Program-made: the position numbers and the translations under genes
Notes under the pieces: model-generated
What the model saw: only the letters and a program-made list of their open reading frames with translations
The model's database searches: none
Told to the model about the DNA's origin: nothing
Origin: Georgenia subflava
Lineage (GTDB): Bacteria; Actinomycetota; Actinomycetes; Actinomycetales; Actinomycetaceae
Reading direction: 5' to 3'
Assembly: GCF_009193155.1 (NCBI RefSeq)
Contig: NZ_VUKD01000004.1
Location: 186,001-250,000, forward strand
DNA: 64,000 bases
Part shown: positions 9,468-54,357 of the stretch, piece after piece
Position numbering within the stretch: the first letter of the stretch is position 1
Layout: the number at the start of each line of letters is the position of its first letter

Positions 9468-9591
9468 CGTGCGGCTGGTACCGCGGCCCCGCGGCCGTCG
9501 TGCGGCTACTGCTGCGGCCCCGCGGCCCTCGTGCGGCTACTGCTGCTGCCCCGCGGCCCTCGTGCGGCTACTGCTGCTGCCCCGCGGCGTT
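9468..9591. repeat. 31-bp tandem repeat x4 spanning VOC gene 3' end
   Basis: Four units of 31 bp begin at 9468, 9499, 9530 and 9561. The core on the plus strand is CGTGCGGCTACTGCTG followed by CCCCGCGGC. The innermost unit includes the last codons and stop of the VOC gene (GQQQ then TAG on the minus strand), and later units carry extra copies of that stop region. The outermost unit is the most diverged. Confidence 0.85.
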
Positions 9592-9984
9592 GATCATCCA
9601 GGTGATGCCGAACTTGTCGACGAGCATGCCGAAGGTGTCGCCCCAGGGCGCCTTCTCGTACGGCATCGTGACCGTGCCGCCGTCGGACAGCTTGTCCCAG
9701 TAGCCTCGAAGCTCGGCCTCGTCGTCGCCGAAGATGGCCACCGAGTGGCTGCCTCCCTCCGAGTACTCCATGCCGCTCGGTGTGTCCGAGGCCATCAGCG
9801 TCATGCCGTTGTCGGTCTCGAGCTGCGAGTGCATGACCTTGTCGGCCTCGGCCGGGTCCTCGCTCGCCTGGAATTCGCTGAACGTGCTGACGTCCAGCGT
9901 TCCGCCGAGGACGCTCTGGTAGAACTCCATCGCCGCCCTGGCGTTGTCGCGGAACCCCAGGTAGGGGCTGAGTCGTGCGGGCAT
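9568..9984 (-). CDS. VOC/glyoxalase-fold protein (PhnB-like)
   Basis: A 138-aa single-domain protein of the vicinal oxygen chelate fold, DUF1428/PhnB-like branch. It opens RLSPYLGFRDNARAAMEFYQSVLGGTLDVSTF, has VMHSQLETDNGMTLMASD and SVAIFGDDEAELRGYWDKL, and ends PWGDTFGMLVDKFGITWMINAAG, all family landmarks. These are often annotated glyoxalase or 3-demethylubiquinone methyltransferase-like, but no activity is established for most. The C-terminal QQQ is followed by the tandem repeats described at its 3' end. It is transcribed alone. Confidence 0.9.
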   Translation of the reverse strand: MPARLSPYLGFRDNARAAMEFYQSVLGGTLDVSTFSEFQASEDPAEADKVMHSQLETDNGMTLMASDTPSGMEYSEGGSHSVAIFGDDEAELRGYWDKLSDGGTVTMPYEKAPWGDTFGMLVDKFGITWMINAAGQQQ

Positions 9985-10140
9985 CGGAACCTCCTTGTTC
10001 GGGGACGACCTGCGCGTTCATCTTTGCGCCTTGCCCGCTGCCGACGCCAGCCCCTTTCTGGCCTCCGGCAGCGCAGCCTGCGCTGGCCTCCGGCAGCGCG
10101 TCCTGCGGCTGACGACGATCCGCACGAGCCCGGACACGAC

Positions 10141-10172
10141 CGTGCGGCCGGTCCCCGCGGACCGGCCGCACG
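10141..10172 (-). terminator. strong hairpin after ABC exporter operon
   Basis: A perfect 14-bp stem (CGTGCGGCCGGTCC with its exact complement) closes on the 4-nt loop CCGC, 14 bp beyond the stop of the permease gene. No T-run. Confidence 0.75.
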
Positions 10173-10185
10173 TCGTGCTACCCGC

Positions 10186-11409
10186 TCAGGCCTCCAGCCG
10201 CATCGCCTGTCGCCAGGTCAGGGCGGTGCCACCCTGCATGACCGCGCGCTGGTAGATCCGCTCGCCCAGCCGCAGCAGCAGGTAGGCGACGACCGCGGTG
10301 ACGCCCAGGGACACGATCGGCTCCCACGCCGCCACGTCCTCGGACAGCAGCCGTACCGGCATGGCGACGGACGAGACCACCGGCACGTAGCTGGCCACGG
10401 CCAACGGCGTCCCGGTGGCGAAGAGCCCCACGAACAGCGCCACCATGATGACGGTGATGACCGGACCGGTGTTGGACTGCAGGTCCTCGCTGCGGCTGGC
10501 CAGCGAGCCGAGCACCGCCCACACCGCCGCCAGCGCCGTGAATCCGACCACGAAGAACGCGATGAACCACCCGGACGCGCCCAGGATCCACCCGATATCC
10601 GCGGCCACGTCCATGACGTTCACGGCCACCAGGGCGACGACGGCGTACAGCGCGATCTGGGCGAACGCGAGCAGCGAGTTGCCCAGCACCTTGCCGTAGA
10701 GCAGCTGACGGATCGGGATGGCGGTGGCGAGGATCTCCACCACGCGGTTCTGCTTCTCCTCGAGCACGGAGTTGGCGATGGTCATCCCGAAGACGATCGC
10801 CGCCATGTAGAACAGGAACGCGAACGCGAACCCGATGATCGAAGCCATCGTGGCGCGCCCGGCGTCGTCGTCGAGGAGCTCGGTGCTGACGGCGGAACCG
10901 GCGGTCAGCTCCTCGACGGTGAGGCCGGCGGCACCGGCGTTCTCCATCAGGGTCGCGTTCTCGACCTCCTCGGTCAGGGTGGTCGACAGGGCTGAGCTGA
11001 TCTCGCTGAGCCCGAGGAGGGTCCAGCCGTCGGGGCCCTCGAGCAGCGCGACGTCGGCGTCCTCGGCGAGCACGGCCTCTCGCGCCGCGTCCTCGGAGCC
11101 GACCTCCGAGATGGTCAGGGCGTCGCCGTCGGCCGTGATGGCCTCCTCGCCGGCGGCGACGATCTCCGCCGCGGCAGGGGTGGCCACGGCCACCGTGTGC
11201 TCGGTGGTGCGCCCGCTCATCCACGACGAGAAGACGACGCCGGCGGCGATCAGCACCAGGGTCAGCGCCGTGGAGAGCATGAAGTTCCGGTCCGTCAGCT
11301 TCACGATGATCTCGCGCGTCGCGACGACGAGCCACGGGTGACGGACCGAGGTCTCGACGCCCACGGTCGGGCTGCCGGTCGGGGTCGGGGTCGGGGCGGT
11401 GGTGGTCAT
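10186..11409 (-). CDS. ABC-2 type exporter permease, NatB-like
   Basis: A 407-aa membrane protein of the ABC-2/NatB type. The Thr/Pro-rich N-terminus leads to WLVVATREIIVKLTDRNFMLSTALTLVLIAAGVVF (helix 1), then a large extracytoplasmic domain of about 150 residues rich in Ala/Glu/Asp, then five or more helices from about residue 190 (ASIIGFAFAFLFYMAAIVFGMTIANSVLEEKQNRVVEILAT). The EEKQNRVVEILAT block is typical of NatB/YhaP Na+ or drug extruders. The start overlaps the ATPase stop by 4 bp. Together the two make one exporter; the substrate is unknown. Confidence 0.9.
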   Translation of the reverse strand: MTTTAPTPTPTGSPTVGVETSVRHPWLVVATREIIVKLTDRNFMLSTALTLVLIAAGVVFSSWMSGRTTEHTVAVATPAAAEIVAAGEEAITADGDALTISEVGSEDAAREAVLAEDADVALLEGPDGWTLLGLSEISSALSTTLTEEVENATLMENAGAAGLTVEELTAGSAVSTELLDDDAGRATMASIIGFAFAFLFYMAAIVFGMTIANSVLEEKQNRVVEILATAIPIRQLLYGKVLGNSLLAFAQIALYAVVALVAVNVMDVAADIGWILGASGWFIAFFVVGFTALAAVWAVLGSLASRSEDLQSNTGPVITVIMVALFVGLFATGTPLAVASYVPVVSSVAMPVRLLSEDVAAWEPIVSLGVTAVVAYLLLRLGERIYQRAVMQGGTALTWRQAMRLEA

Positions 11410-53437: not shown

Positions 53438-53464
53438 GGGGCCACCTCCTTCGAGATCACCATA

Positions 53465-53503
53465 GGCTATTGACCGTAGCCATGAAGGCTACGTATCGTA
53501 GCC
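53465..53503. promoter_or_regulatory. operator array of four TetR half-sites at 11-bp spacing
   Basis: GGCTA (53465), GTAGCC (53476), GGCTAC (53487) and GTAGCC (53498) alternate in orientation at exactly 11-bp steps, giving three overlapping inverted repeats. TTGACC (53470..53475) and TATCGT (53494..53499), 18 bp apart, are the likely -35 and -10 of the metallo-hydrolase gene, so bound repressor would cover the promoter. Confidence 0.8.
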
Positions 53504-53506
53504 AAC

Positions 53507-54229
53507 ATGGAACTCGCACCTGGCCTGCACCGCATCGGCAACGACATCGTCGCCGTCCACCTCATCGTCACGGCGGACGGCGTCACCGTCGTCGACGCGG
53601 GGTTCTCGGGTCACTACCGGCAGCTGCGCACGGAGCTGCGCCCCGTCGGCCGCGACCTCGGCGACGTCCGGGGCATCGTGCTCACCCACGGTGACTCCGA
53701 CCATCTCGGCTTCGCCGAGCGGCTGCGGGCCGAGCAGGGCGTGCCCGTGTACGTGCACGACGCCGACGCCGCACGGGCGCGCGGCGAGGAGGGGACGAGC
53801 CCCGCGTGGGGTCACATGCGACTGGGCCCCACGCTGCGGTTCCTCGCCTACAGCGCGGGCAAGGGCGGCCTGCGGACGCGCCACCTGAGCGAGGTGCGCA
53901 CGTTCGGCGACGGCGACGTCCTGCCGTTGCCGGGCGACCCGCGCATCATCGCGCTGCCCGGACACTCACCTGGCAGCGTCGCCGTGCACGTCCCTGCCGT
54001 GCGAGCCCTGTTCGTGGGCGACGCGCTGACGACCCGTCACGTGCTCACCGGGAGCACCGGGCCGCAGCCCGCGCCGTTCACCGACGATCCCGCGGCCGCG
54101 GCGGCCGCGCTCGAGCGGCTGGTGGCCATCGACGCCGGCTGGGTCCTTCCCGGCCACGGCGGCCCGTGGACCGGTGGCGTGCCGGCCTTGCTCGACGCCT
54201 ACCGCTCCGCGGCCGTCGGCAGCTCGTAG
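53507..54229 (+). CDS. metallo-beta-lactamase-fold hydrolase
   Basis: A 240-aa MBL-fold enzyme. [23 protein letters not shown] opens the fold, [16 protein letters not shown] is the HxxDH-type zinc motif (here His-Gly-Asp-Ser-Asp-His), then [31 protein letters not shown] and [13 protein letters not shown] supply the later His and Asp ligands. ATG 53507 lies 8 bp after the -10, so the transcript is probably leaderless. Divergent TetR gene controls it. Lactonase- or beta-lactamase-like hydrolase activity is possible; the substrate is unknown. Confidence 0.92.
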
Positions 54230-54237
54230 CCCAGTCG

Positions 54238-54357
54238 GCCGGGCGAGCGAGAGGCCGGGCGAGCGAGGGGCCCGGCGAACGAGAGGGCTCGGCGAACGAG
54301 AGGGCGGCCCGGACGAGAGACAGGGCAGGCGAGGGAGGTCGCCGGGCAAGCGAAAGG
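54238..54357 (+). repeat. degenerate 16-17-bp tandem repeats after metallo-hydrolase gene
   Basis: Units of GGCCGGGCGAGCGAGA type repeat about seven times with drift, starting 8 bp after the stop codon. The run ends at the terminator hairpin. Confidence 0.75.

Follow-up and report, generated by a model that had tools for sequence, protein, structure and literature searches.

Tandem arrays at gene ends in the window

The window analyzed here, a stretch of 64,000 nucleotides from Georgenia subflava (bases 186001-250000 of contig 6, with a G+C content of 72.7%; the genome comprises 4.32 Mb in 11 contigs), carries short tandem arrays, several of which run across the stop codon of a gene, so that the stop is copied along with the repeated unit. 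A sequence-only reading had named six gene ends with such arrays. All six arrays exist, and the four clean ones that cross the stop are those of the VOC, dienelactone hydrolase (DLH), OmpA, and LLM genes. They are listed below together with two further arrays, one at the end of a ROK-family gene and one in a divergent gap.

9457-9588 (-): 4.3 copies of a 31-bp unit as reported by Tandem Repeats Finder (TRF), covering the VOC gene 9568-9984(-) over its last 21 bp and stop, and also the 3' flank
17297-17430 (no strand): 3.0 copies of a 45-bp unit, 97% match, lying between two divergent genes, upstream of both, and not at a 3' end
25398-25512 (+): 6.4 copies of an 18-bp unit with a 36-bp higher order, beginning immediately past the stop of the ROK-family gene 24279-25397(+) and running into the called start of the next gene
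29795-29872 (+): 3.0 copies of a 26-bp unit, taking in the last 5 bp (CG-TAG) of the DLH-family gene 29203-29799(+), hence with the stop copied
31242-31386 (+): 3.1 copies of a 47/48-bp unit, taking in the last 10 bp and the stop of the OmpA-domain gene 30622-31251(+)
37193-37315 (+): 2.4 copies of a 51-bp unit, taking in the last 50 bp and the stop of the LLM gene 36196-37242(+)
37858-37995 (+): diverged 72-bp duplication across the TGA of the gene 37436-37867(+)
54237-54319 (+): about 5 copies of a 16/17-bp unit, starting 8 bases past the stop (7 between) of the MBL-fold gene 53507-54229(+)

Pfam backs the assignments of five array-bearing genes (glyoxalase/VOC, DLH, OmpA, Bac_luciferase, and Lactamase_B). 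The gene 37436-37867 gave no Pfam match at E of at most 1 and no NCBIfam match at E of at most 0.01, and the SRPBCC name proposed for it is thus unconfirmed. The duplication across its stop is real but diverged: segments 37858-37923 and 37930-37995 are identical at 46 of 66 positions, with a self-match score (26) above those of all 200 shuffles (maximum, 14), and the repeat is absent from the TRF list even at a score of 40. In the part of the window's genes that was scanned, the AHSA1 (SRPBCC-type) gene is 14906-15394(-), which has no TRF array at its end. The array of the metallo-hydrolase (MBL-fold) gene begins just past the stop, as had been noted, but TRF assigns it 4.2-5.1 copies of 16 bp rather than about seven. 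The array at the ROK gene end may serve as the leader of the next gene.

Arrays were detected with TRF and by direct reading of the sequence, with standard cut-offs of score at least 70, match at least 80%, and period 10-150; the exceptions were the placement test restricted to the window and the comparison of per-base densities in gaps and genes, both run without an upper period limit, and the analysis of microhomology at joints, which used a score of at least 40, a period of at least 14, and no match limit. Genes were called with our own codon-based script, the starts of which are approximate and the long gaps of which may hide missed genes. At the standard cut-offs, the window contains 14 arrays, compared with a mean of 0.2 and a maximum of 2 in 20 shuffles in which gaps were shuffled by dinucleotide and genes by codon. 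Twelve of the arrays are noncoding, with 4 crossing a stop, 1 reaching a called start, and 7 lying within gaps. The sequence-only list, the entries of which are real, was selective: it included 5 of these 12 and left out the seven that start at 10058, 17297, 25398, 28409, 28935, 56070, and 59380, among which 17297-17430, 28935-28997, and 59380-59454 lie in divergent gaps. The density of gap arrays in the window is approximately twice that of the sampled sequence (12 versus 5.5 expected, p=0.011), the window having been picked out for its arrays, and within the window alone the bias toward stops is not significant (4 crossing versus 2.6 by random placement, p=0.25).

The array at 17297-17430, the top-scoring one of the window, is flanked by glycoside-hydrolase-like (MGH1-like) and GDSL-lipase-like genes. 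Repeats also occur within called genes. Overlapping 18/27/45/63-bp repeats at 8700-8932 lie within the called gene 8695-9192(-), where the repetitive region is either coding or mis-called, and 21/42-bp repeats at 33953-34249, with a period divisible by three, lie within the gene 33585-36140(+), where they apparently encode a repetitive protein stretch.

Placement and reading frame of the arrays across the genus

The genus control comprised 2.0 Mb of sequence, namely, 60 segments of 20 kb from the genome of the window (G000) and 20 segments of 20 kb from each of the congeners G003 and G007. A further congener, G005, was sampled over 400 kb and kept separate from this control; G007 and G005 are single-contig assemblies. 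The second comparison set consisted of 80 loci of named genomes (1.49 Mb), 76 of which are actinobacterial by title, the other four being from one Sporosarcina and three Chloroflexi. The G000 sample and the window together (1.264 Mb) contain 182 arrays, distributed throughout the sampled genome, compared with 4, 3, and 6 in three shuffles, which confirms that the arrays are genuine and far above chance. Per base, gaps are much richer in arrays than genes are. There are 103 gap arrays in the 1.2 Mb of G000; 23, 22, and 15 in G003, G007, and G005, respectively (each in 400 kb); and 52 in the 80 named loci.

The 148 intergenic arrays of the genus control are not randomly placed relative to stops. 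With expected counts derived from uniform placement over the available windows, gap lengths being taken after subtraction of extra copies, 44 arrays cross one stop where 18.5 are expected, and only 4 (5 by a looser count) cross one start where 20.1 are expected. The rest include 97 arrays within gaps (109.5 expected), 2 spanning two stops, and 1 spanning a start and a stop. In G005, 3 arrays cross a stop, none crosses a start, and 12 lie inside gaps (1.6, 1.8, and 11.6 expected, respectively), and in the 80 named loci, the 52 arrays include 10 across one stop (7.3 expected), none across a start alone (8.7 expected), and 1 across both. The 3' bias perceived in the sequence-only reading is, accordingly, statistically real in a genome-scale sample and holds in the genus, and the avoidance of starts is seen in both sample sets.

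Gap type matters as well. In the 2.0-Mb control, convergent gaps hold 16.5 arrays per 10 kb, compared with 5.6 in divergent and 4.4 in co-directional gaps, and the corresponding densities in the 80 named loci are 7.7, 1.3, and 2.9. The three gap types are alike in G005 (3.7, 3.4, and 3.1 per 10 kb for convergent, divergent, and co-directional gaps, the convergent value being derived from 2 arrays). The copying of the stop itself, as noted in the sequence-only reading, is not a separate feature: per 10^4 available windows, 11.3 arrays cross the stop and 8.5 lie 0-50 bp beyond it (p=0.48). Stop copying therefore needs no mechanism of its own.

The reading frame leaves a clear signature. Among the arrays wholly within genes, the period is divisible by three in 102 of 106, which shows that out-of-frame duplications are removed; these arrays lean to the gene ends, with 28, 18, 16, 12, and 32 in successive fifths from the N to the C terminus. 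Across stops, there is no frame preference, with 19 of 49 periods divisible by three among the arrays that extend less than one unit into the gene (p=0.45). Such a small overlap is found in 49 of 52 stop-crossing arrays, where uniform placement would give 28.7 arrays with more, although it is nearly automatic for periods divisible by three, so that the informative part is the 30 of 32 other arrays. Overlaps this short would be seen where the first copy retains the original stop and the protein is not altered.

Relatedness, age, and hairpin content of the arrays

The arrays are for the most part unrelated to one another. In an all-against-all comparison of the 115 intergenic arrays from the G000 sample and the window, only 2 similar pairs were found, and 8 of the arrays have a match at another place in the 1.264-Mb sample. 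The absence of shared sequence noted in the sequence-only reading thus largely holds, and a common transposable unit is unlikely. A shared mobile unit, tried as a candidate, is not supported: an Rfam scan of the window at gathering thresholds gave one tRNA only. The 19-bp repeat at 56070-56110 (2.2 copies, in a convergent gap) resembles another array of the same genome (L038 14266), with 85% identity over 39 bp, and belongs to one of the 2 pairs.

Gene order around the LLM gene, the closest named matches of which are actinobacterial, is not kept in five congeners, save for one neighboring homolog in G007, and gene ends were therefore compared singly. None of 25 homologous gene ends carries an array that scores at least 70 and begins no more than 50 bp from the stop. 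This set consists of 10 LLM ends (two from other families of the order), 8 VOC ends, all from congeners and none with a comparable array, 2 DLH ends, 1 OmpA end, and 4 MBL-like ends, one of which is a same-genome paralog; identity is only 36-39% for the four MBL relatives, and the DLH homolog L218 was left out for want of a readable 3' flank. Weaker repeats are present near the stop at two of the 25 ends (scores 65 and 51); for the 10 LLM homologs, the tally is one weaker repeat, which is unrelated. Given that no comparable array was found at these ends, the arrays are most likely lineage-specific and apparently recent.

Copy number changes were observed between the close relatives G005 and G006, which are 95.7% identical over 78.8 kb. 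Seven tandem-duplication indels of at least 6 bp distinguish the two: three in gaps and four in genes, one of the latter within the final 30 bp. The gap events (33, 24, and 6 bp) are all found 50 bp or less from a stop; the 33- and 24-bp changes involve tandem copies at loci other than those of the window. Copies within several window arrays differ by substitutions. At the array joints, the exact match extends beyond one period by a mean of 7.2 bp (36 arrays), compared with 0.87 bp by chance, a value that multi-copy arrays can inflate, and this microhomology is only suggestive of slippage. MutS domain V had no match in the genome and NucS had one, which is the usual actinobacterial state.

Hairpins were identified at four of the six gene ends:

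9396-9428 (-): terminator-like, single-copy hairpin, stem 11, beyond the VOC array
29876-29907 (+): terminator-like, single-copy hairpin, stem 12, just past the DLH array
31372-31400 (+): hairpin, stem 13, with the left arm at the end of the last OmpA array copy and the right arm outside the array
54356-54380 (+): terminator-like, single-copy hairpin, stem 10, beyond the MBL array

The strongest hairpin thus lies outside the array for VOC, DLH, and MBL and at the far edge of the array for OmpA; hairpins of stem 7 and 8 were found within the MBL and ROK arrays, respectively, and none of stem at least 7 at the LLM and 72-bp loci. Among 35 control near-stop arrays with a perfect stem of at least 7, the strongest hairpin falls within the unit in 1, compared with 1.8 by random shift, and 56 further arrays have no such stem; under a laxer stem definition, a hairpin lies in the unit for 6 of 53 arrays, compared with 5.0 by random shift. 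Hairpin strength is not greater at ends with arrays than at those without, be they convergent (-23.5 versus -24.7 kcal/mol, 43 versus 250 ends, p=0.17) or co-directional (-22.8 versus -22.9 kcal/mol, 38 versus 250 ends, p=0.54), and the folding of six array stretches was no better than that of the corresponding shuffles (|z|<1). The suggestion that the units multiply a terminator is thus not supported as a rule: units do not preferentially hold the hairpin, and both strength and folding are unremarkable. R-loops, also invoked for these ends, left no sign either, the coding-strand G-skew showing no difference between co-directional ends with and without arrays (39 versus 587 ends, p=0.94).

Probable selection on ordinary duplications and the excess near stops

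The sequence-only reading had taken the arrays to imply a process that acts at gene ends. Instead, the in-frame periods within genes, the avoidance of starts, the lack of frame preference across stops, and the small overlap with genes point to selection on ordinary duplications, which fits most of the pattern. We consider it likely that the arrays are ordinary lineage-specific minisatellites filtered by selection. Short tandem duplications would be born independently at many sites, with replication slippage or unequal exchange as the most likely route. A unit that contains the stop would be silent at any length because the first copy still terminates the protein, with further copies placed in 3' untranslated DNA. 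Within genes, a duplication would mostly survive only if the frame is kept, and duplications over a start codon or ribosome-binding site would mostly be lost; as a consequence of all this, arrays would gather at or just after stops and in convergent gaps. The arrays themselves would be neutral.

Certain observations weigh against selection as the sole factor. At more than 80 bp from starts, arrays occupy 25 of 23,281 windows located up to 50 bp from a stop, compared with 5 of 16,544 farther away (10.7 versus 3.0 per 10^4, p=0.0035), and the excess persists among arrays with a score of at least 100 (20 of 24,109 versus 5 of 15,975, p=0.030). In convergent gaps of the genus, density drops away from stops (43 of 19,328 near versus 2 of 4,666 far, in gaps up to 400 bp), although long convergent gaps are few and some may contain missed genes. 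Between G005 and G006, all 3 tandem-duplication indels in gaps lie near a stop, compared with 3 of 26 other gap indels (Fisher p=0.0055), but the numbers are tiny and the 6-bp event may be due to chance. The residual, approximately 3.5-fold excess near stops in the genus leaves room for a possible local mutational contribution. It would reflect either stronger constraint on the distal gap DNA or a modest mutational bias at transcription ends, the latter seeming rather unlikely to us.

An alternative is that a mutational process local to 3' ends, such as paused or terminating RNA polymerase, R-loops, or head-on transcription in convergent gaps, raises the birth rate of duplications after stops, with selection adding to the effect. 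The stop-proximal excess away from starts, the richness of convergent gaps in both the genus and the 80 named loci, and the G005/G006 indels would all be accommodated by such a process. Nevertheless, we find no link of the arrays to hairpin strength, hairpin position, or G-skew, and distal gap DNA may simply be under more constraint. Furthermore, the gradient is not seen in the 80 named loci, where, in small numbers, densities near and far from stops are 3.5 versus 3.6 per 10^4 in co-directional gaps (5 and 3 arrays) and 7.8 versus 6.1 in convergent gaps, and G005 lacks the convergent excess. We regard this process as rather unlikely. The corresponding picture for the genus, in which a termination- or transcription-linked mutational process would make transcription ends hot spots where short tandem duplications are born, at a rate raised several-fold within about 50 bp of stops and most strongly in convergent gaps, independently of hairpin strength, seems to us similarly doubtful.

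Retention of the arrays for a function, be it the multiplication of terminators or the tuning of mRNA 3' ends, appears highly improbable. In favor of such a role, the arrays fall in what is probably 3' untranslated sequence, one arm of a strong hairpin is shared with the OmpA array, and hairpins of stem 7 and 8 occur within the MBL and ROK arrays, respectively; however, the shuffle-like folding of the six stretches, the location of the strongest hairpins beyond or at the edge of the arrays, with a hairpin inside the unit in so few controls, and the existence of homologous genes without arrays all speak against it. An assembly or sequencing artefact, to which a genome in 11 contigs might be thought prone given the tendency of repeats to be mis-assembled, can be practically dismissed: arrays of the same kind are present in the single-contig congeners G007 and G005, copies in several arrays differ by substitutions, and each of the six listed arrays is shorter than 150 bp, that is, short compared with ordinary sequencing reads.

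The arrays find their closest counterpart in the bacterial intergenic minisatellites, or variable-number tandem repeat (VNTR) loci, that serve as material for multiple-locus VNTR analysis (MLVA) typing. The likeness extends to head-to-tail units of 10-100 bp, locus-specific unit sequences, enrichment in gaps, and absence at homologous gene ends, and possibly to variation in copy number, which was seen between close relatives, here G005 and G006, at other loci; in the window, the head-to-tail copies of units of at least 10 bp are well above chance. Nothing essential differs, except that many arrays here cross the upstream stop and that their density, 103 per 1.2 Mb, exceeds the 52 per 1.49 Mb of the named loci. 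The mycobacterial interspersed repetitive units (MIRU) likewise are repeats found at the borders of genes in an actinobacterium, and they have been described as repetitive and apparently mobile, inserting at start codons with a coupled open reading frame (PMC12548453). The arrays here, by contrast, mostly share no sequence, as judged by comparison with each other rather than with MIRU sequences, and they avoid starts, only 4 of the 148 crossing one start alone.

Tandem repeats of constant unit size, 20-21 or 52 nt, were described by Subirana and Messeguer (PMC8161180). They resemble the present arrays in their abundance, with many arrays of differing sequence per genome, and differ in unit length, given that periods here extend over the size classes 10-14 through 80-84 bp. 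Of the 148 arrays, 30 have periods of 15-19 bp, 31 of 20-24, 25 of 25-29, 16 of 30-34, 13 of 35-39, and 10 of 55-59, with 23 in other classes. Among the literature matches listed, which cover titles and abstract openings, with most subscription papers outside the scope, none was found that treats tandem arrays crossing stop codons in bacteria as a class.

The striking pattern of serially copied stops can arise simply because duplications do no harm at such places. The frame rule within genes, its absence across stops, and the avoidance of starts together provide a usable null model for tandem repeats in gene-dense genomes. The residual stop-proximal excess poses a well-defined question, open to testing, about mutation where transcription ends.

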